From Collinsella sp. An307 (GTDB lineage: Bacteria > Actinomycetota > Coriobacteriia > Coriobacteriales > Coriobacteriaceae), in the NCBI RefSeq assembly GCF_002161805.1, contig NZ_NFIP01000009.1:62001-126000 (forward strand): a stretch of 64,000 bases of DNA, read 5' to 3'. Of the stretch, positions 49,229 to 64,000 are shown one piece after another (the stretch's first letter is position 1; every line of letters starts with the position of its first letter). The notes below the pieces were generated by a model. The model searched no databases. It saw only the letters and a list, made by a program, of their open reading frames with translations, and was not told where the DNA came from. The position numbers and the translations under genes were made by a program.

Positions 49229-51874
49229 CTACCACCAGGTGCTGTTCTCCTCTGGTGCAAAGGCGATCTGCAGCTGTGTGTCGGAGAGGACAGTGGGGCC
49301 TTGGTCGTCGGGAAGCACGGTCGCGCTACTGTCAGCTACAAGGCGCGCGACAAGCTGGCAAGGAACGCCGCTCTTACCAAGATATGCTGACCGAATATGA
49401 AGGGCAAACGCGAACGTGCGCTTGGTGGCGTCGGCACTCGTGCGATCGGCATGGATGGTCGCCACGTCGCTGATGAGCTCACCGCCAAGCGTTTGCAGGT
49501 AAACCTCGTAGGTGGCGGATAGCGCTTTCCCGCCTACCGGATCGTTCTGCAGAACCTCGAGCGAGCAGGTGAGATTGGTGATGGCCGAGAGCTGCGTGAC
49601 GAGTGAGAGCGTGACGTGCGAACGCTCGGCAAAACCGAGCATGCCAGCTCGATAGTTTTTGAAGTGGATAACGGGCACGCAGAGCTCCTGCAGCGAGATG
49701 CCACCGTGAACGTAGTTATCACCGCCGCCGGCTTTTTTGAGGCGCACCGCTTCGTGCGGGCAGAGGCCTGCAAGCTCGCCGTTGCTTACAAGATCGAGGG
49801 AGACGGGCAACATTACCGGGGAGGAAAGTGCGCGGTCGCCTACAACATAGCGTCTGCCGAGGGCGACGACCGACCCGCTGACTTCTTCTTGAGAGATTTT
49901 GTCGGTCTCCGCAAGCGGCCGATAGGTGTAAAGAAACCCGTGGTCCGCCGTTATGAGAATGTCAGATGCTCGAAAATCGCGAACGATAAGCGAGACAAGC
50001 TTGCAAAGCTCCTCAACGGTATCAGTGCATGCTCGGAATACATCGTTTTCGGTTGTTGCGTCGTCGCCCGTTGCATCGATGCGGTTGTGGTAGAGATAGA
50101 TAACAGCCGCTTCTCCAACGGTTTCCTTCCGCTCCGCCTTGCTGAGACGCGTAAAGTCTGCCGCCTGGAGGGCAAGACCCTGTGCGTTTGACTGATGCGT
50201 AGTGAGGTATTGATCAAGGATGGCACTGCGTGCGGGCGTGCCCTGGGTGGGCATGCCATCAACGGTCACTGTGATGCCGTTGTGGGCAGAGGTGCCGGAA
50301 GCCGATAATAGATAACTATCGTGTGGAAGCAGGGCCGCCATGCCGCAGAGCGTGATGGACGGAAAGGGCGCCTGCATACTTGTAAGATCCGTTTGTCCTT
50401 GGGTTGATGCTTCGAGCGCCTCAGCAAGTTCCCGTGCAACTTCGTAGCGCAGTGCGTCAGAAATGATGACCCATGTGCGCTTCTTTTTTCGGGCAAGGGA
50501 ATCAACGTGCGTGATATAGAAGTCGGTGAGCCGGGGAATGCCGGGGGCTGCGCCGTGTTGGGCGATGGGCTCTGCCACGCAGGTCTCCCAAGCGGATGAG
50601 ATCTTACGCAGGAACCAGCCGCGATACCAACTTTCGATTTGTTCGGCGAGGTCATGAAAAGGTGCATCGAGATCTCGAGGTGCGTTGAGCCGAATGTCGG
50701 CAAAAGCCGTGTGGAATCGACGATAGGCTGTGTCGACAAGCGACCAACTGGTCGTATATTCCCGCCAGACCGCAACGGCATCTTCTTGGGCGAGAGAGCC
50801 ACGATGTGCAACAGCGAATGTGCGCAGCGCGAGGGCAGCGTCGAGGGCAGCGTAGCACGTACGGAAGGTTTCGACCCAGATGCCTGCGCGACGGCGATCC
50901 AGTATGGTACGCAAGGCGTCCGAATCAAAGCTAGTGCGGCCAAGCTCGACAATGATGCGGCGGATGAGAAGTTCGTCAACGACCGGGAAGAAAGATATGT
51001 CCGCAAGCTCAGTGCTGGGCAATGGGCGTAGATGCTCCTTGAGAAAATATGTTGCCTCAAAAGAGGAGGCGGCGCGAAGAAGCGTGTTACGAACGGTGGG
51101 GTCACCTTGTGCGAGCCGCAGCCAGAGGCGTGCGATGTCGTTGGCATGGCGAAGGTCCATTTCGCTGCAGGCAGATGAGGGAAGATTTGGAATTGCGAGG
51201 GGCGTTAGCGTTGAGAGCAGCACGTGCGTAGCGAGGTCCTGCTCGCAAGCAACGTCGCCGGCATAGCCAACATAGTCCTCAAGCAATTGACAGAATGCCG
51301 GCAGTACGCCAGAACGCTTTAGCAGTTCTTGAGCCCCTTCGCCCCCTTGCTCATAGGCCCGACAAAGATAGGCAACGATGACGTAGCCGGGGTCTGCTGA
51401 AACATCTCGCCCAAGCGTTGTTGCCATAACGGCGAGAGCAAGCTGCTGCGGTGTGGCGTAGTGCGATCTAAGCTCCTGAACGTGGCGTAGGCGTCCTTTG
51501 GCCGATAGGAACGAGGAGAAGGTGGCAAGTGCCGAGCGCATCTCAGGCGTGTCGCTTGCCTGCAGCTCATCAAGAAGAAGCGTAACGCGGTCTGCGGCAA
51601 AAGCGGGGGCATAGCTTACGGCGTCCGCTAACCAGTCGGGTTCGTTTGCGGATGCATTTGGGCGATAGATCAAAAGGCGCGCGTTGGGTGCCAGGTTGTT
51701 AAGCGTCTCTTTGAGCACGAACCTATCGCCGTCTACATCGCTGAATACCTCAACGCCTGGCAAGTCGAGTTCCGCAAGGGTCTCGGCAAACTCAGCGCCG
51801 GCGTCATTCCAGATGATGACAGGACTTGTTTGGAAGAGGCTGTTCAAGCGCTTCTGTATCTCGATGGGCTTCAT
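49229..51874 (-). CDS. pglZ: BREX phosphatase-like protein PglZ (type A)
   Basis: 881 aa. The N-terminal domain (about residues 1-105) has VIIWNDAGAEFAETLAEL, then a stretch ending DWLADAVSYAPAFAADR. The alkaline-phosphatase-like core starts near residue 460 with TWVIISDALRYEVARELAEA. The metal site ILITADHGFLYTYRPL is near residue 640. PglZ partners PglX in BREX and is needed for methylation and restriction. It is the last gene of the BREX cluster here: the next gene in the direction of transcription is the unrelated amylase. The ATG lies after AAAGGA, 42 bases past the SNF2 gene. Confidence 0.92.
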   Translation of the reverse strand: MKPIEIQKRLNSLFQTSPVIIWNDAGAEFAETLAELDLPGVEVFSDVDGDRFVLKETLNNLAPNARLLIYRPNASANEPDWLADAVSYAPAFAADRVTLLLDELQASDTPEMRSALATFSSFLSAKGRLRHVQELRSHYATPQQLALAVMATTLGRDVSADPGYVIVAYLCRAYEQGGEGAQELLKRSGVLPAFCQLLEDYVGYAGDVACEQDLATHVLLSTLTPLAIPNLPSSACSEMDLRHANDIARLWLRLAQGDPTVRNTLLRAASSFEATYFLKEHLRPLPSTELADISFFPVVDELLIRRIIVELGRTSFDSDALRTILDRRRAGIWVETFRTCYAALDAALALRTFAVAHRGSLAQEDAVAVWREYTTSWSLVDTAYRRFHTAFADIRLNAPRDLDAPFHDLAEQIESWYRGWFLRKISSAWETCVAEPIAQHGAAPGIPRLTDFYITHVDSLARKKKRTWVIISDALRYEVARELAEALEASTQGQTDLTSMQAPFPSITLCGMAALLPHDSYLLSASGTSAHNGITVTVDGMPTQGTPARSAILDQYLTTHQSNAQGLALQAADFTRLSKAERKETVGEAAVIYLYHNRIDATGDDATTENDVFRACTDTVEELCKLVSLIVRDFRASDILITADHGFLYTYRPLAETDKISQEEVSGSVVALGRRYVVGDRALSSPVMLPVSLDLVSNGELAGLCPHEAVRLKKAGGGDNYVHGGISLQELCVPVIHFKNYRAGMLGFAERSHVTLSLVTQLSAITNLTCSLEVLQNDPVGGKALSATYEVYLQTLGGELISDVATIHADRTSADATKRTFAFALHIRSAYLGKSGVPCQLVARLVADSSATVLPDDQGPTVLSDTQLQIAFAPEENSTWW

Positions 51875-51916: not shown

Positions 51917-53794
51917 TTAGTCGTCGAATAGGCCAGCGAAGATGGCGTCCAGGTCTTCTTCGGTGGTAGGCTGCGTCTCGATGAGCTCGGCGTCGATGGC
52001 GCGAAGCATCGTTTGTTCCTTCATCTGCAGCCTCTCGTAGATTTCCTGATCCATGGAGTAGGGCTTTCCTCCCTGGTCGTATGTCTCGCTCAGGAAATAA
52101 TAGCGAGTGTCCTGCCCGGCAGGCAGGCCGAGGCGATGGATGCGGTCTTTGGACTGCAGCAGATGCACAAGGTTGAAGCTGTACTCGTAGTAGACGGCAT
52201 CGTGGCATACGGAATGCAGCGACACCGATTCCGCGAGCGTGTGCGGGTTGGTAATGAGTACGGGGAAGCGGCCTGCGCGGAAGTCGTCCAGCACGCGCGT
52301 GCGGTCGTCCAAAATCACGTCGCCCGAGATCACATGCGCTTCGATGCCTTGCCGGGCAAGGTCACGCCGCAGGGCCTCCATGCTCTTGATGAAGATGCAC
52401 CATATGATGACGGGATGCCCGTCGCGTACGAGGTCCTGAATTAGACGCGTGCACTGAAGACGCTTCTCGGAGATGCCGGTGGTGCGGATCATCTCGACAA
52501 TGTCTTGCGAGTAGTCCGCCACATCAACGTCTCCCGTGTCCTCATCCACCTCGAGCACCCAACGGAACTCATTGGGGTCGAGGTCATCGAGCAGGTCCTC
52601 TGGATCGTTCTCGAGCTGGAGGATGCGCAGCATGAGGGTGAGTTTGTTCTTGCGGTAGTGGTTTTTGAGCACGCGGACGAGCTGGTTAGTGCGTGTGTCC
52701 GCGGATACCTCGAGCACCTTGTCCGGTGAGGCGGGCGGTACGCCCAGGTCGCGCTTGGTGGTGCGGCAGAAGAACGGCTGGATGCGCTCGTTGATGGCGA
52801 TCTGATCTTCCTCTTCGGCGCGACGGAGTTCGCCGCGCGTGAAGCCGAAGAACGAGTCGTACTCATGCGGGTAGAGGATGTGCAAGAAGTTGTAGAGGTC
52901 CTCGTAGGTGTTGGGGAGCGGTGTTCCCGTGAGGGCGAGCGTATAGGGCGCGTCTTGCGCGATGGTTAGCGCTGCCTCCGCCTGCTTGCCGCCCACGCGC
53001 TTCACGCGGTGGACCTCGTCGAAGACGAGCATGGTGTCATGCGCTGCAACTTGCGCGAGCTCGTCGGCGACGCTGGGCGCTGCCTCGTAGTTGACGAGGA
53101 TGAGGTTGTAAGCGCCAATCTGAGCGCGGATGAAGCGTTGGCGGTCCTTACGGCCGAGGCGTTTGTAGGCCTCATCCTGCGTGGAGATGCAGGAGAGTGG
53201 CCGGGTATCGCCAAAGCAGAGATGCCACTCGGTGCGCCAGGAATCGAAGGCGTTCTTGGGGCAGACCACCATGAGACGGCGGACCTTGCCCTGGGATGCG
53301 AGGAAGGCAAAGGCGCCGAGCACCGTTGCCGTCTTGCCGGAGCCCGGGACAGAGAAGTTGCCCGCGCGTGCCATGGTGGCGAGGAAGAACGCATCGCGCA
53401 TCTGGCGGTCCTTGAGGGGGCGCACCATCGAGCGATTTACCACGTCTGCAAATGCGGCAAGGCGCTCGTCGTACTTCGGGTCGCCTCGCTTGATTTCGTT
53501 ACCCGCGCGGTAGTGCTCCTCGGCGAGTTCGCGCATCGTATTGAAATGGGCGTCGAGGCCGGGGTCGATCTCGAGCACAGTGCCCAGCGCCTCGGCGACA
53601 TCGGACAGGCGTCCCGCGACGCGCTCGTAGTCGCTGTAGTTGCTGGGCATCTTGAGCGCGAGCATTCCGTTTGCGCCGTCACCGGTGACGTAGCGACGGC
53701 AGCGGATCTTGAATTTGGCGTTACGGCGAAGGGCGGCTGCATCAAGTGGAGCGGGGTCGAGCAGCAGCTGCTCGCCATCTAGATAAAGTCGCAT
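51917..53794 (-). CDS. SNF2-type DNA helicase/translocase in the BREX island
   Basis: 625 aa, superfamily 2. Walker A is in NFSVPGSGKTATVLGAF (near residue 150), motif II is VFDEVHRVKR (DEVH, near 258), motif III is LALTGTPLPNTYEDLY, and motifs V/VI are VLITNPHTLAESVSLH and LLQSKDRIHRLGLP (near 550). The N-terminal 140 residues are unrelated to the helicase core. ATG at 53794 overlaps the stop of the ParB-like gene (TGATG), so it is translationally coupled to it; an adjacent GTG is less likely. It probably moves on phage or modified DNA. It is not a standard BREX gene. Confidence 0.88.
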   Translation of the reverse strand: MRLYLDGEQLLLDPAPLDAAALRRNAKFKIRCRRYVTGDGANGMLALKMPSNYSDYERVAGRLSDVAEALGTVLEIDPGLDAHFNTMRELAEEHYRAGNEIKRGDPKYDERLAAFADVVNRSMVRPLKDRQMRDAFFLATMARAGNFSVPGSGKTATVLGAFAFLASQGKVRRLMVVCPKNAFDSWRTEWHLCFGDTRPLSCISTQDEAYKRLGRKDRQRFIRAQIGAYNLILVNYEAAPSVADELAQVAAHDTMLVFDEVHRVKRVGGKQAEAALTIAQDAPYTLALTGTPLPNTYEDLYNFLHILYPHEYDSFFGFTRGELRRAEEEDQIAINERIQPFFCRTTKRDLGVPPASPDKVLEVSADTRTNQLVRVLKNHYRKNKLTLMLRILQLENDPEDLLDDLDPNEFRWVLEVDEDTGDVDVADYSQDIVEMIRTTGISEKRLQCTRLIQDLVRDGHPVIIWCIFIKSMEALRRDLARQGIEAHVISGDVILDDRTRVLDDFRAGRFPVLITNPHTLAESVSLHSVCHDAVYYEYSFNLVHLLQSKDRIHRLGLPAGQDTRYYFLSETYDQGGKPYSMDQEIYERLQMKEQTMLRAIDAELIETQPTTEEDLDAIFAGLFDD

Positions 53795-55028
53795 CACAGC
53801 TCCCTCTGAAGGTTTTCAATCTTCACCTTGAGCTTGGCGGCAAGTTCAAGCACGCGGTCGAGGCCTGCGTTCATGTCATCGAGTTGCTCAGGCGAGAGCT
53901 TACTGAGCAGCGCCATGTCGACCCCCTCAAGGCTGCTGAGCGAATCATGCACGCTGCGCACCTGGCCGTTTTTGATCTTGCTGTTACCCGCCTTGGTGCG
54001 CGCTTTCTCATTGGAGGCCTTCTGCTCGTTCTTGAGGTCATCGTCAGCCGCAACATGGTCGCGGATGAACTCGGTGGAAACCGCGGTGTCCTGGGGCATG
54101 TCCTCGAGTTTCTCAAGGACCTGCTCGACGATATCCAGCTGTTCATCGACATACTCACCGTCGCCGTGCTGGGAGGCGTCGATGTAGTCGCACATGTCGC
54201 GGATAGCGCGCACGCGGTCGCCCAAGTTGCCCATAAGGATGTTGGCAAAGACGATGTTCTCCATATCTTGGCGGTCGTCATCGTCTTTGCACTTCTGCAG
54301 CTTGGTGGCGAGCGACTCAACAATGCCCTGAATCTTGAGGTCCTGTGCGATATGGTAGGCGCCGGGCGCGTTGACGAACTCGAGGAAGTCGTTCATGACA
54401 TCAATCTGGCGCAGGAACTTCTTCATATCGCTTTTCGAGATGTTGGCGTGGGCGCCGTACTCGTCGGCGGTCATCTTGCCGCCGTTGACCCAGGTGTTGA
54501 TATCCACCAGGCGCGAGATGGGGTCGTAGTCGACCTTCTCGTCGCGGCCGAGCTGGATTTCGAGCTCGAGGCCTTTAATCGCCTTCTCGTCGTAGGTGTC
54601 GGGGAAACGTAGCAGCGCAGAAAGCGCGGGCTTGCCTCTTCGCGTGAAAGCATGCGCAGGCACGTGAAGCGGCGATTACCGTCGATGACGATGCCGTTGG
54701 AGAGAATGATGGCAACTTCCTGCTGGCCCTTCGCCTTGATATCGAGCTTGGTGGTCTTGAGGCGCTGGGGATTGTCGTCCTCAATCATGCCCTCGATAAG
54801 ACGGTCGAGCTCCTCGGTATCGGTGGGCAGTGCGCCGTGCTCCATCTCGTACCGGGTGATGAACGTGGCGATACGACCGTTCTGCACGTTGTAGTGCAGT
54901 TTGTCGATACGCACCTCATAGACGCGCTGGTCTTGGTTTTGCCCGTTAACGCGAATCATGTTGACGTTGTCGGTCGCGTGCAGCCAACCCTCGGCCTCGC
55001 CCGTGCGGAAGAACTCGTTGATTTCCAT
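53794..55028 (-). pseudogene. ParB/DndB-like protein, interrupted by a -1 frameshift
   Basis: Two overlapping frames make one protein of about 410 aa. The 5' frame (from ATG at 55028) has a ParB-like N-terminal domain: VYEVRIDKLHYNVQNGRIAT and GIVIDGNRRFTCLRM. The 3' frame continues with FPDTYDEKAIKGLELEIQLG, then helices ending in a Leu-rich coiled region. The break lies near GTTTCCCC (plus strand 54597-54608). One extra base there would read RCYVFPDTYDEK and restore the family pattern. It may be a true mutation, a reversible homopolymer slip or a sequencing error. Start and stop abut the neighbouring genes, so it is the middle of a three-gene operon. Confidence 0.7.
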
Positions 55029-56234
55029 TTACTCCACCTCTCGTATGAATTGGTCATGACTAACATACACCCGGTCGAGCTCCGGGCTGTAGAACAGGTT
55101 TGTCGCGCGAATAAGTGAGACAAGCTGGGGGATTGTGATGTCGATGTCATACTCTTCAGTCAGAATCTCGCATAGTTCGTCGATGTCGAGTGAGCTTTCG
55201 CGCTCAAGAAGCGATGTCACCAAGTCTCGCCCTCGCGCCTGGGTGTGTGGTTCCGCAAAGATGCGGCGTCCGCCAAGGTGGCCGCGCGTGCAAAAGCGCT
55301 TGCGCGAGAGCAGGACGGACTCGTAAAAGATATCTGACAGGCCATATGCCAGAAGGGCAATGCCGGGGGCGTTCGCGCGCAACCACGGCACGGTGAACTG
55401 CGGGATGCCGGCGGCCACACTCGCTGCCACCGACTCCTTCGCGAACGCGTCGAGATCGGCCCGACTGATCTCTAGCTCCTGTAAGCCAGCGGTGGTAATC
55501 CAAGTGTCTTTGTCGTAGCCAAAGACAGTCCCGGCTGCCTGGGCGCTGGAAAGATAGGACTTGAACGAAGACGCCGAAAGCATGTCTGTAGGCAGGCTGT
55601 CATGCGTGACAAGCGGTGCTGCGAAGAGCATCCGATAGTATTCCGCGGGACTATCATGGTCGCCGCGGATGACGCAATCGGCAAAGAGCGTGTAACCAGC
55701 CGCGGTCGCAGCAGCAATCTCGCCGTCGGATGAAGCGGCGATACCCGCGCGTTTGAGTGCCTCGCGGAAGGCTTCGCGCGTATACCAAACGCCCGCCGGC
55801 TCTATCTGAGACGTCTGCAAGTCCTGCTCGGTCTGTTCGGCCTCAGCGGAGAGCTCAATATCGTGCGCGCACTCCTCCGGTGCGGTGGGGTCAGAGGGCG
55901 TGGCGGAGGGTTCGATATCGACGAGCGAGAGCCCTGCGAGGTCTGGCTCAAAGTTTTCGGCACGTGCTTCTATGTCGGCGAGCCAATCGTCTTCCTCGAC
56001 GCGGTGCCGGCGCGCGCGAATCACGAACGCGCGCTCATCGGGCGCAATGTTGTTGAGCGCACAAATCAGCTCGAAACGCGGTGTGTCAGTCTCGACATAG
56101 AGCTTGACGTCATCGGGTAGATTGAGACGACGTCCAAGCTCATAGGCGGCTCCTGTGAGATCATGCCAGACGAGCACGTCGCCGGTGGCGAATGCAAGGA
56201 AGTCGTCGAGTTGTTGTTGAAGCGAATGAGGCAT
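55029..56234 (-). CDS. PglZ N-domain-like accessory protein of the BREX island
   Basis: 401 aa, not a recognised family. Residues 1-108 align by eye with the N-terminus of the PglZ encoded nearby: DVLVWHDLTGAAYELGRRL against VIIWNDAGAEFAETLAEL, ALNNIAPDERAFVIRAR against TLNNLAPNARLLIYRPN, and DDWLADIEARAENF against PDWLADAVSYAPAF. The alkaline phosphatase core of PglZ is missing. The middle is helical. The last 60 residues (SLDIDELCEILTEEYDIDITI then QLVSLIRATNLFYSPELDRV) look like a winged helix. Its TAA stop is followed immediately by the ATG of the ParB-like gene. Function unknown; it may bind the PglX or BrxB surface that PglZ uses. Confidence 0.75.
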   Translation of the reverse strand: MPHSLQQQLDDFLAFATGDVLVWHDLTGAAYELGRRLNLPDDVKLYVETDTPRFELICALNNIAPDERAFVIRARRHRVEEDDWLADIEARAENFEPDLAGLSLVDIEPSATPSDPTAPEECAHDIELSAEAEQTEQDLQTSQIEPAGVWYTREAFREALKRAGIAASSDGEIAAATAAGYTLFADCVIRGDHDSPAEYYRMLFAAPLVTHDSLPTDMLSASSFKSYLSSAQAAGTVFGYDKDTWITTAGLQELEISRADLDAFAKESVAASVAAGIPQFTVPWLRANAPGIALLAYGLSDIFYESVLLSRKRFCTRGHLGGRRIFAEPHTQARGRDLVTSLLERESSLDIDELCEILTEEYDIDITIPQLVSLIRATNLFYSPELDRVYVSHDQFIREVE

Positions 56235-56304: not shown

Positions 56305-56604
56305 ATGCCTGTAGTACTGCCGGTTTCGGAATTGCAGAGAAATATGGGGAGCATTGCGGACCAGTGCCACGAGTCCAAGCAGCCCATCTACCTGACGAAG
56401 AACGGTAAAGCGTCTCTTGTGGTAATGGATGCCGCCGAGTTTGATAGTCGCTTTGCCGCCCTTGATGAACTTCGTGAGCGCGAGAAGCGCGTTGAGCGCG
56501 CCATCTCCCGCGGCTACGACGACCTCTTGAATGGCCGAGTACGTCCGCTTGACCAGGCGCGGCAAGACGCCGAACGCATTCGGAAGGCCCGCCATGGGGC
56601 ATAG
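56305..56604 (+). CDS. antitoxin, Phd/YefM family
   Basis: 99 aa. The N-terminal Phd/YefM DNA-binding fold reads VLPVSELQRNMGSIADQCHE and QPIYLTKNGKASLVVMDAAEFD. The C-terminal half (REREKRVERAISRGYDDLLNG) is the helix that neutralises the toxin. AGGAGG precedes the ATG. The toxin gene overlaps its 3' end by 11 bases. It is on the plus strand, opposite to the BREX genes on both sides. Confidence 0.9.
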   Translation: MPVVLPVSELQRNMGSIADQCHESKQPIYLTKNGKASLVVMDAAEFDSRFAALDELREREKRVERAISRGYDDLLNGRVRPLDQARQDAERIRKARHGA

Positions 56605-56917
56605 GGAGCTGGACGACAGGGCTGAATATGAGGTGCAGCTCACCGATGAGGCGGTCTACGGCTTGGCGGAAGTCATGCCAGATGTCGTCTACCAGCGCGT
56701 AAACGAGATGCTCTCTGTTCTGGCGACCTTTCCACGATATGGGGAGGAATACGATCCTTATTACGAGGCCGCTCGTCCTTCGGTGCCGTGCAGGGTGCTC
56801 TTCGTAGGCCGGTACGGCATCTACTACGCCATCGATGAGGAGAGGCAGAAGGTGACCGTGCTCGCTATCGAAGATTCTCGGCGTGATCCGCGCAATCGCT
56901 TCAGAGTGGTTGATTAG
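56594..56917 (+). CDS. toxin, RelE/ParE family
   Basis: 107 aa. YEVQLTDEAVYGLAEVMPDV gives the N-terminal helix, VPCRVLFVGRYGIYYAIDEE the central strands, and VTVLAIEDSRRDPRNRF the end with basic residues where RelE enzymes keep catalytic side chains. ATG at 56594, inside the antitoxin gene, is preferred over a start at 56531 that would extend far into it. It is probably an mRNA interferase or gyrase poison. It may act as an addiction module for the defence island. Confidence 0.85.
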   Translation: MGHRELDDRAEYEVQLTDEAVYGLAEVMPDVVYQRVNEMLSVLATFPRYGEEYDPYYEAARPSVPCRVLFVGRYGIYYAIDEERQKVTVLAIEDSRRDPRNRFRVVD

Positions 56918-56937: not shown

Positions 56938-57912
56938 TTATTTGATCTTCGCGAGTACGCTCTGAAGTTTGGCGTAGTTGACCTTTACACCGTCATCGAG
57001 GTCGATGGCGATCATCTGGTCGGCAAGCTCGTGGATCTTCTCCTCGTAGGACTCGAGTTCCGCAGCCTGATCGGCAACGCGCTTGCGCTCCTTGGTAAGG
57101 GCGACTTTTTGACGGCCGTCCGCGTCTGCAACGGCATCATCAAGATGGGCGAGGCGACTGCGGTAACGCTCCTGCTGCTCGTGCACGTAGTCGGTGCGGA
57201 CGCGGGCCATAAGGTCCGGTTGGTAGCGGTGCATATAGATGAGCGCCTTGAAGCCGTTCTTCTTGCCGGAGTCGAGCAGCCAGTAGATGGGGCGCTTTTT
57301 ATACGTCTTACAGTGGTCGGCAAAGAACTCGCGCAGGAAGTACTGGCGGATGGTGTCGCGTGATGTGCCTTTGGCGCCGGGGTCAAGGGCGTCGGCTACG
57401 AAACGAAGGTTCTCCTCGAGCGTTTCGGCGCCGTATGCAGCGACAACGAACTGTTCAAAGCGGGCCACAATGTCGTCGGGGAAGTACACGTCATCGGTGA
57501 TGGGGAGCACGTTGTCTGCATCGGGCATAAAAGTCACGTGCTCAGGGTCGGGCATCTTGGCAAGGTATTCTGCGATCGTATCGCCCTGGTTGGCGAGTAC
57601 GAGTCCATCCACATCGAGCGAGTAGCGTCCGAACATGCAGCCTACCGCGTAGCTGATGAGCGAGACGATTTCATCGCGCTTGGTGCGCACGTAGTTGTTG
57701 CCCTTGAAGCTTTCAGGAATCTCTTCTTTGGTATCGAAGATGCGTGCGACCGAGACGTACTTGTCTTCGACCTCGATGGGAACCTCGCCCACCATGTTAT
57801 AGATTTCGGCGAAGATGCGGTTGAGCTCTTCTTCGTTGGCCTTGAGCTGGTCAAAGCGCGCGTTAACTTCGGCTTTGTGCGCTTCGTACTTGTCGCGGAT
57901 GAGAATCGCCAT
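56938..57912 (-). CDS. BREX PglX, C-terminal fragment encoded as a separate gene
   Basis: 324 aa. This matches the C-terminal domain of BREX-1 PglX: FDQLKANEEELNRIFAEIYN near the start, then LISYAVGCMFGRYSLDVDGL, YFLREFFADHCKTYKKRPIY, GFKALIYMHRYQPD and an end DLDDGVKVNYAKLQSVLAKI. The first residues match the linker that in intact PglX follows the target-recognition part, so nothing appears lost at the break. It has its own ATG and an AAAGG site (GAAAGGCGG). It probably reassembles with the other half into a working enzyme. Confidence 0.85.
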   Translation of the reverse strand: MAILIRDKYEAHKAEVNARFDQLKANEEELNRIFAEIYNMVGEVPIEVEDKYVSVARIFDTKEEIPESFKGNNYVRTKRDEIVSLISYAVGCMFGRYSLDVDGLVLANQGDTIAEYLAKMPDPEHVTFMPDADNVLPITDDVYFPDDIVARFEQFVVAAYGAETLEENLRFVADALDPGAKGTSRDTIRQYFLREFFADHCKTYKKRPIYWLLDSGKKNGFKALIYMHRYQPDLMARVRTDYVHEQQERYRSRLAHLDDAVADADGRQKVALTKERKRVADQAAELESYEEKIHELADQMIAIDLDDGVKVNYAKLQSVLAKIK

Positions 57913-57982
57913 TCATGCCGCCTTTCTATAAGAGTTCAGCGAGCTGGCAGCGCCGCCTCCTATGAGGGGAGGTGATCTGCCT

Positions 57983-58111
57983 ATGGACTGGTTGTACGGA
58001 TTCCTGAGATTGGTGGCCCTGGTTATCAAGCTCTTGAACGAGGCAATCGAGCTCGTATCCAAGGCTCGAGGCTACATACGTGAGGGGAGGAACCGGAGCC
58101 GCCGCCGATAA
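57983..58111 (+). CDS. 42-residue hydrophobic-basic small protein, toxin-like
   Basis: Plus-strand ORF in the gap between the two pglX halves. It starts MDWLYGFLRLVALVIKLLNE and ends with a basic tail YIREGRNRSRRR. The upstream GGGAGGTGATC is almost a perfect complement to the 16S 3' end, ideally spaced before the ATG. A single hydrophobic helix with a basic end recalls type I toxins and holin-like peptides. No partner RNA was identified. It is antisense to the BREX transcript. Confidence 0.5.
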   Translation: MDWLYGFLRLVALVIKLLNEAIELVSKARGYIREGRNRSRRR

Positions 58112-58170
58112 GCGGTAGGCGGCCCCAAGCGTGCTCCTAAGATTGGGACAATGCCCGAGGTTCGTTGCCA

Positions 58171-58674
58171 TCATACTGTTGTGCCCATAAGATCGGAAAT
58201 GATTTGTGAGGTAAATCGTCCAGCTACCGATGCACCAATCATGAGCGGTTGGGGAACATCGGCACCAGAATCTTTTGACCCCGTCCGTCCGAGCAAATGA
58301 AGCCCCTTATTGGTGATACGGTAATTCAGCGTTCGCCCAGCAACAGGTGCTGATGGGGTCTGCTCGATATAGCAGATATCAACAAGAGGTTCGATATATC
58401 GCGCCAGATCGGCCTGCTTGATGCCCCATTCGCTCAGATCGAAGCGCGTCACCGTTCCATTCTTCAGCTCAAGGAGTTGCCACAGTATCTCCCGAATGAG
58501 TTTCTTGTCGAACGGGCGCATGGCATCCTGCGGAATTGCCCAGGCCCTTTTCTCCTTCTGGGCGCCCTCAATGCTCCCGCTCTTGCACCAATCGTATATG
58601 TCGTTCGTTGAGCAATTCCATCGTTCCGCCGCTTCGAGCGCGGTGAGTGTCTTCGCCTTGCGTGTTTCACCCAT
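58171..58674 (-). CDS. helix-turn-helix protein inserted between the pglX halves
   Basis: 167 aa. Residues about 9-52 fit an excisionase/MerR-like helix-turn-helix: LTALEAAERWNCSTNDIYDW, then GSIEGAQKEKRAWAIPQDAM. Residues about 58-125 look like a winged helix (LIREILWQLLELKNGTVTRF and the following GIKQADLARYIEPLVDI). It starts 12 bases after the stop of the N-terminal pglX half, so it is probably read from the same message. ATG at 58674 is preferred to a longer frame that would run back through pglX. It may regulate the locus, be a remnant of a mobile element, or act with PglX. Confidence 0.7.
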   Translation of the reverse strand: MGETRKAKTLTALEAAERWNCSTNDIYDWCKSGSIEGAQKEKRAWAIPQDAMRPFDKKLIREILWQLLELKNGTVTRFDLSEWGIKQADLARYIEPLVDICYIEQTPSAPVAGRTLNYRITNKGLHLLGRTGSKDSGADVPQPLMIGASVAGRFTSQIISDLMGTTV

Positions 58675-58685
58675 CTCTGCACCGC

Positions 58686-61211
58686 CTAGACCAATGGATT
58701 GCGTTTGAAACCCCAAGAGGTTTCTTGGGAGTCCCAGTCGACGTGGGAGAGAGCGATGTTTGATGAAACGATTTGGGCAGTTGAAGAAGTCAGTGCGCCT
58801 TCTGGATAAAACACGGGTATTGCAGAAACATCTCCAACTTGGCAATTTAAGGTTGGGGCGATGATGCTCAAAATATGACGAGCTACGGAAGAATTAAGCA
58901 AACCGAGGATATAGTATCTAGATTCTGGCTTGTCTTCAGTGCGAATGACGAGAGCCGGACTCGCATCATCGAAGTAAACACTACCATCATTGAATCTAAA
59001 GCTGGAAATTGAAGATGTTATTTTTGACCAAGTAAATGTATAACTTCCATAATACTTGGAAGGCCCTAGCCCGCTCCCCGGGAAACTGCGCAGATCTTGT
59101 GCATCATTACGCCAATTGACAACATGTTCGATATTGCCGTACCAGCGTCTAAAGGCCCCTCCTTTGGTGTATAAAGCCCAGGAACTACGTTTTATTTCTT
59201 TGGAGGATACTTCATACCACAAACGAAGGAAACGTGCGTTATCCCCGGTGAAAATACCTTTGACTATTGCGAGAAACTGGTCGCGCATCGAAAGTCCCAT
59301 TTTAAATGCATGAAAAAGTCCACTTCCTGCCCAATAGGCGATTGGAGAGCCGGGAATGTCATGGAACCTCCCAGCATCAGCGCGATAGAACCACCCGCAA
59401 TCGGGATTCTGAATGGCTTCGAGGGCCTTGGGCGCCTGTGTGGCGGCGCCAACAAAATCTGACAGGCGCACGTAGCCGCCCTTGTAGCCGTCGATATGGG
59501 AGTTATGGTAAGTGAAAGTGCAGATAGGGACAGTTGCACCGGCGAAGCCTGAGTACTCAAGTTGGATAAGACTTGTAATTGTCTTTTCGTCGATTAGCTT
59601 ATTTCGTAGCTTCTCGTAACTGCCTATGAACATCCATACGAAGGGGCACATGATGCCGACTTCGCCATGGTCTTTTGCAATATCCATAATGCGAACGATG
59701 AAGGAGGCGAAGAGGTCGCTTTTTACATCGGGATAGTGCTTCTTCACCCACTTGCTCATGAACGGGTTGAAGCTGCTTGATCCCATGTAGGGCGGATTGG
59801 CAACCACTACATCGAAACGGCGAGTGAGCGCCTTGCATGCAGCGATTGCCTGCGCGACGTGCTCATTGGCGTTTGAGGAGAAGAGGTCGCCCGCGTTCGA
59901 TTCGACAAGATCCCCCTCAAGGGCTGCGATGTCTTCGGGGGTGGGCTGCATCAAGCTGCCGATCTCGCTTAGATGGGCAAGGTCTTGCAGGAGTTGCTCT
60001 TTGTTGCGGAGCGGGCTTGTGAGACTCAGCTCATCCATGTCGACATCGATGCTGTTCAGCACGCAGATGTTGGCTGTGATGTTGCGCGTAAAGAAACGTC
60101 GGTCGTACGCGCGGGCGCACATGGCAAGCGCGAGCTGCGCGATCTGCGCGGCGCGCTGGTCAATCTCAAAGCCCGAGAGATTCTTAGTGAGGATGAGCGC
60201 GGAGATTTCTCGCTCACGATAGCCGCATTCCTGATAGATGGCCATGAGCATCTTGAACGCATAGACCAAAATATGCCCCGAGCCGCAGGCGGGGTCGCAG
60301 AAGGTGATGTCTTCGGGGCTGTTGATGCGGATGAAGTCCTCATGTTCCTCATCTGGCTCGATGTAGTATTCCATGAGGCGGTCGGAGGGGTTCTCCGCGT
60401 GGGCGTGCTCGCGCAGTGTGCTCTCGGGGTGATTGAGCATCCAGAGGCGTCCGAGCGAATTGTCTACCATGTAGCGCACGATCCAGTCGGGCGTGAAGAG
60501 CTGTGTGGCGGGGGCAATGTCCTCTGCACCGGCTTTGCGCTTGGACTTGAAGAACTCGGCCTTCACTGCGGAGTTGTAGAACTGGTACATCCAGCCCAGA
60601 ATCTCAACGTCTACCCAAGCATCCTCCGGGATATTCGTCACCAGGCGGTAGAGCACGTTGAACTCGGTTTTGTTAAGCAGGTTCTGCGGCAAGGTGAGGG
60701 CGTCTGAGGTGACGGTACCAAAGACCGACGGCAGGAAGGCAGCGAGCTCGTTGCATTGCGCGATGAGGATGGCACGATAGAGCGCCTCGTCATCGCCCGT
60801 TTGAATGAGCTGGGCGACCTCCACCTGGTCGAGGCCGGGGAGATCGAGCGTGGTGGCTACGCGCAGACACTCAGGGTTAAAGCTGCCATCTGCGGCGGTA
60901 AGCATGCGCACGTGGCTTGGCAGGTAACCGGCAAGCTCCATGTAGCGGATGGCGGCAAAGCGGTTGAACCAGGTGTAGGCCATGGTGGTGATGAAAGGGA
61001 GCGTCCCCTCGCGCTCGATGCGTCGATAGAGCTCGGTGCGTTGAGCGTGCTCGGCGGGGGAGAGCACCACGCCGCGAATGGCGTCGGCATCCGCGGCGTA
61101 TTCCGCACGGCCCGCATCGTCGAGTGCATAGACATAGAGTTGTTGTTCCATGTCTTTCAGCAACTGCTCGCGCGCTTCGATGGAGAACTTCTCAATCGCC
61201 TTGGTGTCCAT
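58686..61211 (-). CDS. pglX: BREX adenine-specific DNA methyltransferase PglX, N-terminal fragment
   Basis: 841 aa; intact PglX is about 1,150-1,250 aa. The amino-methyltransferase motifs are complete: DPACGSGHILVYAFKM (motif I, near residue 307) and VVANPPYMGSSSFNP (motif IV, near 472). The last 350 residues are the variable target-recognition part. The frame stops right after SQETSWGFKRNPLV, exactly where intact PglX enters its C-terminal domain. That missing domain is encoded at 56938-57912. The final 700 bases are clearly more A+T-rich than the methyltransferase part. It starts 26 bases after brxC. Confidence 0.9.
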   Translation of the reverse strand: MDTKAIEKFSIEAREQLLKDMEQQLYVYALDDAGRAEYAADADAIRGVVLSPAEHAQRTELYRRIEREGTLPFITTMAYTWFNRFAAIRYMELAGYLPSHVRMLTAADGSFNPECLRVATTLDLPGLDQVEVAQLIQTGDDEALYRAILIAQCNELAAFLPSVFGTVTSDALTLPQNLLNKTEFNVLYRLVTNIPEDAWVDVEILGWMYQFYNSAVKAEFFKSKRKAGAEDIAPATQLFTPDWIVRYMVDNSLGRLWMLNHPESTLREHAHAENPSDRLMEYYIEPDEEHEDFIRINSPEDITFCDPACGSGHILVYAFKMLMAIYQECGYREREISALILTKNLSGFEIDQRAAQIAQLALAMCARAYDRRFFTRNITANICVLNSIDVDMDELSLTSPLRNKEQLLQDLAHLSEIGSLMQPTPEDIAALEGDLVESNAGDLFSSNANEHVAQAIAACKALTRRFDVVVANPPYMGSSSFNPFMSKWVKKHYPDVKSDLFASFIVRIMDIAKDHGEVGIMCPFVWMFIGSYEKLRNKLIDEKTITSLIQLEYSGFAGATVPICTFTYHNSHIDGYKGGYVRLSDFVGAATQAPKALEAIQNPDCGWFYRADAGRFHDIPGSPIAYWAGSGLFHAFKMGLSMRDQFLAIVKGIFTGDNARFLRLWYEVSSKEIKRSSWALYTKGGAFRRWYGNIEHVVNWRNDAQDLRSFPGSGLGPSKYYGSYTFTWSKITSSISSFRFNDGSVYFDDASPALVIRTEDKPESRYYILGLLNSSVARHILSIIAPTLNCQVGDVSAIPVFYPEGALTSSTAQIVSSNIALSHVDWDSQETSWGFKRNPLV

Positions 61212-61237: not shown

Positions 61238-64000
61238 TTATTGGATGCGGATGCCGTCGTTACCTGCGAGGTCGCGGACGAGCTCGGCGCGTACGCGGTC
61301 GAGGTAGCGGTCGATGTCTGCCTCGGTGCGGAGCGTCTCGGGTTTGAAGACCAGGCTGCGCTCCACATGCTTGATGCGCGCGGGCTTGGGCGGCGCTGGG
61401 GGCGTATGGGTCTTGCTGTCGATGGCCGAAGGCTGTGGCTTGGGCTTGCGCCTCTCAACCTCGGCATCAATCTGGGTGTAGAAATCCGTCTGGTCGTTGT
61501 TGAGACGGATTGCGAGCGCGTCGAGGTCGCTGAGCGAGCGCGTGTCATGTGCCATGTCACGCCGCGTGAGCTTGCGCTGTCCGATGGCGGCGAGCTTGAC
61601 TTCGCTCCGCTCGGCTTTCGCTTCGATATCGGCGTACATGCTCTCGATGCGATCGAGGAGCTCGTTGCGCTTGACCTCGAGTTTCTCGTCATAGACATCC
61701 TCAACCGTCTGCATGGCGCCGGAGAGGAGGTTTATCTGGTTGTAGGGGGATGCCGCGTCAAGCACGCGTTCGATGGTGGCGAGCGCCTCGGTAGCGTCGG
61801 CGCTGCCCGCGAGGTACTCGCGCTCACGCTTCATGTCTTGGCGAAGTGTGGTTGCCTTATCCCAGATACGCTGCTGGTTGGGGAAGAACTTAAAGATGTC
61901 CTCCAGATCATCGGCAGCGTCGAGTAGGTCATCCTCGGCGTCGGCGATGCGCGGCAGCAGGTCAGATGGGTCGGACCCCGCGGAAAGAACGCCCTTGATG
62001 ACGGAGATGCCATGCTCCACGTTTTCGCGCCCCGGGTATCCTGCGCGGCGGTACTCTCGCTCGAGCAAGTTTTGGAGCTCCTCCAACTTCTCGCGCAGGG
62101 CGCTCACGGCGCGGGCGGCAAGGTCTCCCTCTTCCAAGGGGAGGTTTTGCTGGCCCGTTGCTTGGGTGATGATGTCACGTACGGCGCGGCGCACATGTTC
62201 CGGAACCTTTATACGCAACTCGATGAGGGTGTCTTTGGTTTCTGTTGCCTTGCGCAGGCGGTTGACCGCGCCTGCAGCAGTGATATCCACCGTGGATCCG
62301 GCATAGCTTAGCTTGGCGTCGCCCGCCGCGAGGAGCTCCGCAGCCACGGCGGCTACGTCGATTTCGCGCCAGCCGAAGGGACTATCTTGAAAGCGCTTCT
62401 GCACCTCCGCCATGGGGGTGTCTATATGTAGACGGCGCTGGTTTTCCAGGTAGCGCTTCATCTCGTCGACGGCGCCCTCATTAGGAGTAGTGCCGTCGAG
62501 TGTGCGACGCTGCCCGCACAGGATTTCGGTGAGCTCGGCGTCGGTGTGGTAGTTGGTAGTGATGAGGGAGAGCTTTGGGTAGACGCTCTCTACCGAGTTC
62601 TCCAGCACGCTGGAGAGTACGGCCTTGGCTGTGGTGCCTTGGGCCTTTACCTCGTAGCCGCCCGCGTAGAACGTTCCCTTGCGGATCCCCTCCTCTAAGA
62701 GGCTGCGCGCCTCGCGCAGCTCCGCCTGCGCATCGGAGCGGCGGTCGCGGATGATGCGTTGGACGTTCTCGGGCTGGCGACTGAGGTTCTGCGTATTGGC
62801 ATACCCCTCAATGCGCAGGGCATCTTGGATGAGGTCGTAGTAGCGCGCATCGTCAGAGAGCAGGCAGATGGCCTCATTGCGTTGCGACCGCGCGAGCAAC
62901 GCCTCATGCGAGGTGGCCTCAGGACCAGAGGCGGCGGTCATGACGCGCAGTACCATGCCGCCCGGGGCACCGTAGCGGGTTTCGTCGATGTACTTTTCCA
63001 CATCGAAATCGTTCTCGCCGTAGCGCAGTTTGTTGCTGTCAAAGATTTCGCCAAAAACAATCTGCCCCAGGCGTTCGGTGATGCGTGCGGGCTCCACCAC
63101 GGTGTTAGAGATTGCGCGAGCGATCTCCTGCTCGTCATCGGTCAAGAACTGGTACGCCTCGCCGCTGCGGCCCACGTAGTTCTGGCGCACCAGGCGCGCG
63201 AGTGAGTCGGTGACAGCGCTGCGTACCTCGCGCAGGTTGGCGTCGATGTCATCCACCATGAGGATGGCGATGTTTTCGGGGTTGGATTCGACGTCATTCA
63301 CCCAGCGGATGAGGAAGAGGAGCTTGAGCACCTCAACATCGACAGGCTCGAGCCCCTGGCCCTTGCGTGCCGCCTCGTCCGCACGGTTAATCACGCGGCG
63401 CACATGGCCCTCGAGGAAGGTCTCGATGGTGTCGTAGAAGCGCCAGAAAGGCACGAGTGCGCTCTCGTCCTTATCCTCGATCGCCTGTGCTGCCTCTTGG
63501 AAGCCGGAGAGCATGGAGCGCTCGCTGCCCGAGGTGTGCTTGCCCGAGCTGCCATGGCGACGAATCTCGTTGAGCGTTGTCTGAAGCAGCGTGAATTGGT
63601 AGGTGACAAACGGATAGGACTCGATGAAGTCCTCGGTGCTCGGGTAGCCGCCCAGGTCCTCTTTGGCAGTGCCGCTTTTGAAGTGGAAGAGGTTCTTGAG
63701 AGCGGACGCCTTCTGACCGTACACCATGGCGAGCAGGTCGCGCGCGTTCTCGTTCTTCTCCAGGATACGGCGCTTGATGACCTCATCGGCATCGATGCCC
63801 GAGAGCGACAGGCGGCATTTGAAGCGGCCAGTGATTTTTGAGAAGTCGTCGCTCTTGCCGGACATGCTCACCACCTCGTCGATGGCTTCTTGGCTCGTGA
63901 CCATGACCCAGACAAGGCCCTTGCCCTTGGCGCCGAGCTCCTCCACGATGGACTGCAGGTTGAGCATGCGGGCGGTGTCTTTGCCGTTGCCGATGAACTG
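61238..64000 (-). CDS. brxC: BREX P-loop ATPase BrxC, 5' end outside the window
   Basis: 920 residues are visible and the frame is still open at the window edge (QFIGNGKDTARMLNLQSIVEE), so the N-terminus with the Walker A site is missing. The stretch GKGLVWVMVTSQEAIDEV and the downstream helical and coiled-coil architecture match BrxC/PglY of BREX type 1. It is an AAA-type ATPase essential for BREX. It is followed by pglX with a 26-base gap. brxA and brxB would be expected just beyond the right edge of the window. Confidence 0.9.
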   Translation of the reverse strand, partial: QFIGNGKDTARMLNLQSIVEELGAKGKGLVWVMVTSQEAIDEVVSMSGKSDDFSKITGRFKCRLSLSGIDADEVIKRRILEKNENARDLLAMVYGQKASALKNLFHFKSGTAKEDLGGYPSTEDFIESYPFVTYQFTLLQTTLNEIRRHGSSGKHTSGSERSMLSGFQEAAQAIEDKDESALVPFWRFYDTIETFLEGHVRRVINRADEAARKGQGLEPVDVEVLKLLFLIRWVNDVESNPENIAILMVDDIDANLREVRSAVTDSLARLVRQNYVGRSGEAYQFLTDDEQEIARAISNTVVEPARITERLGQIVFGEIFDSNKLRYGENDFDVEKYIDETRYGAPGGMVLRVMTAASGPEATSHEALLARSQRNEAICLLSDDARYYDLIQDALRIEGYANTQNLSRQPENVQRIIRDRRSDAQAELREARSLLEEGIRKGTFYAGGYEVKAQGTTAKAVLSSVLENSVESVYPKLSLITTNYHTDAELTEILCGQRRTLDGTTPNEGAVDEMKRYLENQRRLHIDTPMAEVQKRFQDSPFGWREIDVAAVAAELLAAGDAKLSYAGSTVDITAAGAVNRLRKATETKDTLIELRIKVPEHVRRAVRDIITQATGQQNLPLEEGDLAARAVSALREKLEELQNLLEREYRRAGYPGRENVEHGISVIKGVLSAGSDPSDLLPRIADAEDDLLDAADDLEDIFKFFPNQQRIWDKATTLRQDMKREREYLAGSADATEALATIERVLDAASPYNQINLLSGAMQTVEDVYDEKLEVKRNELLDRIESMYADIEAKAERSEVKLAAIGQRKLTRRDMAHDTRSLSDLDALAIRLNNDQTDFYTQIDAEVERRKPKPQPSAIDSKTHTPPAPPKPARIKHVERSLVFKPETLRTEADIDRYLDRVRAELVRDLAGNDGIRIQ

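Follow-up and report, generated by a model that had tools for sequence, protein, structure and literature searches.

Type-1 BREX is the closest described system to the locus analysed here. Its nuclease, PglZ (BrxZ), has an N-terminal domain (residues 1–96/98) that cryo-EM and crystallography of the Salmonella and Acinetobacter systems have identified as the BrxB-binding domain (PMC11974810, PMC13326643; PDB 9nv3, 9zll and 9zn5), together with a helical linker, a metal-dependent nuclease domain and a C-terminal beta domain. Complexes of BrxC, BrxB and PglZ of the form C2:(B:Z)2 have been observed, so there are two PglZ slots per BrxC dimer, and the BrxC ATPase is regulated by BrxB:PglZ (PMC13326643). 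A survey of BREX diversity, which deals with the N-domain of PglZ, the loss of BrxL and effectors of the ParB-HNH kind, puts BrxL as missing from 24% (present in 76%) of type-1 BREX taxa (PMC12839542). Two other arrangements are relevant: BREX types 2, 3, 5 and 6, in which an SF2 helicase (BrxHI, BrxHII) is found in an operon without BrxL, and GmrSD-family (ParB-HNH) proteins such as BrxU, which place a ParB-superfamily protein in a BREX locus.

The window, a 64,000-nucleotide stretch of a contig from a Collinsella, a gut bacterium, contains most of a BREX operon in which a 401-aa protein, here called X, starts with a domain resembling the N-terminus of PglZ and is followed by genes for a ParB-like protein and an SNF2-family helicase (Table 1). 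The three adjoining genes are referred to below as the cassette.

Table 1. Coordinates of the BREX and cassette features in the window, and loci elsewhere with the cassette or the ParB-SNF2 pair.
Feature	Position or locus	Strand	Remarks
PglZ, BREX nuclease, last operon gene	49229..51874	(-)	PF08665 5e-46; PADLOC PglZ 7e-180
SNF2-family helicase, 626 aa	51917..53797	(-)	motifs intact; PF00176 1.6e-18; Helicase_C 4e-9
ParB-like protein	53794..55028	(-)	frameshifted near 54600; ORFs 54471-55028 and 53794-54663
X, 401-aa adaptor-like protein	55029..56234	(-)	intact frame
X tail, residues ~176-399, C-terminal domain common to cassette X proteins	55038..55709	(-)	
X head, residues ~4-110, PglZ N-terminal (BrxB-docking) type domain	55905..56225	(-)	PglZ homology; dN/dS 0.06
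PglX C-terminal part, separate ORF	56938..57912	(-)	PADLOC PglX 878-1170 of 1174, 2e-119
PglX N-terminal part (methyltransferase)	58686..61211	(-)	PADLOC PglX 1-869 of 1174, 1e-260
BrxC	61238..64000	(-)	start beyond window; PADLOC BrxC 2e-234
Cassette beside methyltransferase/helicase restriction system	L031, L032, L038		
Cassette beside McrBC	L033		
Cassette beside type I RM and McrBC	L042		
ParB-SNF2 pair beside type III RM	L066		X absent
ParB-SNF2 pair beside cytosine methyltransferase, MutH/Sau3AI-like and Vsr genes	L065		X absent

A type-1 BREX operon without brxL

The genes run in the order brxA, brxB, brxC, pglX-N, a cargo gene, pglX-C, X, ParB, SNF2 and pglZ, with brxB and brxA found upstream of brxC on the contig (BrxB 2.5e-58, BrxA 7e-51). 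The full type-1 set of brxA, brxB, brxC, pglX and pglZ is therefore present, and in canonical order, but the operon differs from the described type in having X, ParB and SNF2 between pglX and pglZ, in its division of pglX into two ORFs, and in the absence of brxL, which in relatives without X comes after pglZ. The BrxL model TIGR02653 had no match in any of the three genomes whose X has a PglZ head (G000, G350 and G166), the 99.5%-complete window genome being one of them. Among the 47 genomes of the class sample that carry a type A PglZ, with BrxL presence called by TIGR02653, BrxL was found in 40 of the 44 others (Fisher's exact p ~0.002), an association that is not phylogenetically independent, as the three X genomes represent about two lineages. 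The remaining PglZ genomes without BrxL are G214, G240, G345 and G395, giving seven altogether. One further genome (G232) has a cassette X without a PglZ head, adjoining a BREX operon that keeps BrxL.

In Coriobacterial BREX operons PglX is divided over two ORFs of about 850 and 324 aa, namely at positions 56938-61211 of the window and in L036, L037, L045, L046, L047, L048, L051, L053, L054 and L057. The cargo between them differs by genome, being an HTH gene in the window and a SIR2-like gene in L037, and the split looks like a natural one with a cargo slot. Between pglX-C and X, the opposite strand encodes a Phd-like antitoxin and a RelE/ParE-like toxin (56305-56917, (+)); a relative occurs in L036, where it precedes the BREX operon on its upstream side, and in L035, where it is next to the cassette.

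The head of X is homologous to the N-terminal domain of PglZ

The initial annotation had aligned by eye the N-terminus of X with that of the PglZ encoded 3 kb away. This was borne out by phmmer (6e-13; X 4-117 on PglZ 5-114), and the W-x-D, LNN-x-AP and DWLAD motifs it had pointed to are indeed common to both proteins. The W, D, DWLAD, F and N residues vary little or not at all across PglZs, while LNN-x-AP is shared by X with only the closest of them. PADLOC PglZ profiles matched X residues 4-107 (E 2e-4), as did NCBIfam TIGR02687 (BREX-1 PglZ type A) residues 14-107 (E 4e-4), and in a search of 398 genomes of the class the X N-terminus matched its own PglZ (E 7e-11) and the N-termini of many other Coriobacterial PglZs. 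The profile comparison that had been suggested as a check came out in the same direction: hhalign of three X heads against 12 Coriobacterial PglZ heads gave a probability of 99.3% and an E of 4e-20 over 105 columns. Homology between the X head and the PglZ N-terminal domain is confirmed by these sequence comparisons.

The predicted structure, also put forward as a check, agrees with this. AlphaFold2 gave pLDDT values of ~66-84 for residues 1-100 (the overall pTM being only 0.29), and the four best PDB matches of the model were all PglZ N-domain chains (9zll_F: TM(target) 0.78, rmsd 2.2). PglZ rows were present in the alignment behind the model, so that it is consistent with homology rather than independent evidence for it.

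The absence of the PglZ catalytic core, as first annotated, is likewise correct. PF08665, the metal-dependent nuclease domain, has no match in X, and hence X is not filed as a PglZ; the helical linker and C-terminal beta domain are missing too, and the X tail is unrelated to PglZ. The idea that X is a PglZ in which the core has been replaced does not hold, since the rest of the protein belongs to a family found elsewhere, onto which a PglZ head has been grafted. The X heads of the three genomes group together as a single clade (support 0.96), suggesting a single capture. Comparison with a 93%-identical relative showed 2 nonsynonymous and 9 synonymous changes in the head (dN/dS ~0.06, on small counts), and the head is under purifying selection.

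The PglZ residues that contact BrxB in Salmonella (K58, E62 and D88) were mapped via chain 9nv3_C with a constant offset of one. They correspond to K55, N59 and D84 in the PglZ of the window, all invariant in the 12 PglZ heads, and to I57, N61 and D87 in X. X matches its own PglZ at two of these positions (Asn and Asp) but differs at the lysine, which is isoleucine in all three X heads, and this change may weaken or redirect BrxB binding. The BrxB encoded by the operon keeps the key Arg and has an aromatic residue in place of Trp.

Only two further genomes, both of Coriobacteriaceae, contained full-length relatives of X, at 93% and 40% identity. A scan of genome contigs, relying on short conserved patterns that distant cases may escape, recovered only the two Collinsella relatives. 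Viral contigs scanned with X, the PglZ heads and a 437-aa X relative gave no matches, the X tail had no match in phage records, and no promoter was detected when the region upstream of X was scanned.

The tail belongs to a ParB-SNF2 cassette shared with other restriction systems

The X tail (~176-399), which ends in a predicted winged helix (AlphaFold2 secondary structure), also occurs in proteins without any PglZ head. Such genes are found in Coriobacteria and on Enterococcus plasmids, with a ParB-like gene and then an SNF2 helicase gene directly downstream. X, ParB and SNF2 are adjacent in all three PglZ-headed genomes as well as in other contexts, and in two loci (L041 and L071) the X gene does not directly adjoin the pair. 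The cassette, or the ParB-SNF2 pair, neighbours restriction systems of types I, II and III as well as McrBC, and is also found on plasmids. In the genome-context survey of homologues proposed in the initial annotation, the tail family travels with ParB-like and SNF2 genes. A cassette of sigma-factor-like X, ParB and DEAD/SNF2 helicase is present in L064 and, beyond it, in about 50 records of Enterococcus plasmids; it is conserved and widespread on E. faecalis plasmids, is annotated only as hypothetical, and is possibly an undescribed defence module.

The ParB-like protein has weak ddrB-ParB and PD-Lambda-5_A matches. Its gene in the window lacks one base compared with the intact L039 copy, and it is also intact in L037 and L040. 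The dN/dS of ParB is 0.02, and since the part downstream of the frameshift still has this low value, the break is recent or a sequencing error. GmrSD and BrxU differ from it: no DUF262 or HNH (GmrSD/BrxU) Pfam match was seen in the ORFs at 53794-55028, and the ParB of the window has a different architecture, without HNH, and is here always paired with SNF2 and X. The SNF2 helicase (dN/dS 0.046) matches the BrxHI and BrxHII models only partly and is neither of these at full length; it resembles the helicases of BREX types 2, 3, 5 and 6 in belonging to an operon without BrxL, but comes in a unit with ParB and X that is also found outside BREX. SNF2 genes linked to Sau3AI/MutH (L065, L067 and L070) specify an N-terminal PLD-like domain, which BREX-linked SNF2 genes do not; PLDc_2 was matched in the L065 and L067 proteins, and the L070 protein aligns with those at full length.

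A parallel is provided by a Priestia plasmid (L070) with a Sau3AI type II system that has a MutH/Sau3AI-like second protein. Here an X relative of 512 aa adjoins a Sau3AI-family restriction enzyme and a cytosine methyltransferase, has the same tail as the X of the window, and lies next to SNF2 and ParB genes. Its head differs in matching residues 278-466 of the local Sau3AI (E 5e-44), and not the N-terminal half of that enzyme; it also matches Sau3AI in the PDB (270-478 of 4pxg, and the separate chain 2reu). We take this C-terminal half of Sau3AI to be non-catalytic, so that in two unrelated systems X bears a non-catalytic domain of the local nuclease. The heads of X proteins of 437, 860, 1030 and 1578 aa had no match to neighbouring restriction proteins, so that the copying of nuclease domains has been demonstrated in only two head types.

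Possible roles of X

On balance we think it probable that X is an adaptor that connects the ParB-SNF2 module to BREX by way of BrxB, with the module standing in for BrxL. The head would be a second copy of the BrxB-binding domain of PglZ, most likely docking on BrxB in the BrxC-BrxB complex, beside PglZ or in its place in some complexes; with two PglZ positions per complex, PglZ and X could each fill one of them in a mixed complex. The tail would carry ParB and SNF2, and X would in this way bring the pair onto DNA recognised by BREX, where the helicase might move or remodel the DNA while PglZ cuts it, the module substituting for BrxL in this operon. The suggestion that X is an accessory factor recruiting another effector through the PglZ docking surface gains from the head corresponding to the known BrxB-binding domain of PglZ and from ParB and SNF2 being encoded right behind it, but needs amending in that the cassette seems to replace BrxL, and not merely to add to BREX. 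Counting against the adaptor are the Lys-to-Ile change in the X heads, the frameshifted ParB of the window, the restriction of this X to three genomes in about two lineages, the X genes of L041 and L071 that do not directly adjoin ParB-SNF2, and the frequent lack of BrxL in type-1 systems in any case. A wider version, in which a portable module of ParB-like protein, SNF2 translocase and X joins unrelated restriction systems via a nuclease-copy head, and replaces BrxL where the system is BREX, is put forward more tentatively, its chances falling slightly short of even; the module is proposed to attach because the X head copies a non-catalytic domain of the resident nuclease.

Several other roles could be imagined. 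X may be a regulator or brake, its head competing with PglZ for BrxB and holding PglZ off until infection, or tuning methylation against restriction. A single brxB gene would have to serve both heads, X is without catalysis, the interface isoleucine could make it a weaker, displaceable competitor, and BrxC ATPase activity responds to BrxB:PglZ (PMC13326643), but a brake leaves unexplained both why X is constantly coupled to ParB and SNF2 and why there are relatives with a Sau3AI head, and we regard it as unlikely. Scarcely different in likelihood, if a shade lower, is that the cassette defends the cell independently as a backup, with the head, whether of PglZ or Sau3AI type, acting as bait or sensor and ParB-SNF2 as a guard, triggered by phage inhibitors of BrxB-PglZ docking or by loss of the complex. 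This would suit the many unrelated restriction systems, and the plasmids, in which the cassette or the ParB-SNF2 pair is found, as well as the backup modules, such as PARIS and GmrSD, that accompany BREX according to the diversity survey (PMC12839542); the loss of BrxL in X genomes suggests a core role instead, and the PLD nuclease domain seen in Sau3AI-linked SNF2 proteins is missing from the BREX-type one.

Improbable, in our view, is a DNA-binding protein that regulates transcription, either of the operon or of genes of the phage, and uses its PglZ-like part as a ligand sensor. Two tandem OmpR-type DNA-binding winged helices precede the PglZ head in the X of G166 (L036:7824-9776), and long X relatives are annotated as sigma-factor-like HTH proteins, but the X of the window has no recognised HTH apart from the predicted C-terminal winged helix, and its links are to helicase and nuclease genes. 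That X is a functionless chance fusion of a pglZ fragment is the least credible reading, and very improbable: although X is rare and the ParB gene next to it is frameshifted in the window genome, X has been kept across lineages in which it shares just 40% identity, the purifying selection seen in the head disfavours such a fusion, and the Sau3AI head is a second, independent graft.

Conclusions

The accessible sections of the diversity survey (PMC12839542) contain neither a separate protein with the PglZ N-domain nor a ParB-SNF2 cassette, and a PglZ-headed adaptor with ParB-SNF2 was not described in the open-licence literature searched, which is weak evidence of novelty. We regard the locus as a new version of BREX, and a wider rule of nuclease-mimicking adaptors is possible. 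A natural version lacking BrxL bears on the way in which BREX stops phage and on the contribution of BrxL, the loss of which reportedly costs restriction while leaving methylation in place. If the adaptor role of X is true, a ParB-SNF2 pair tethered via a copied PglZ domain would reveal the role of BrxL by substitution, and the BrxB surface would be a general recruitment port. More broadly, the parallel with Sau3AI suggests that restriction systems may gain helper motors through adaptors that mimic part of their nuclease.
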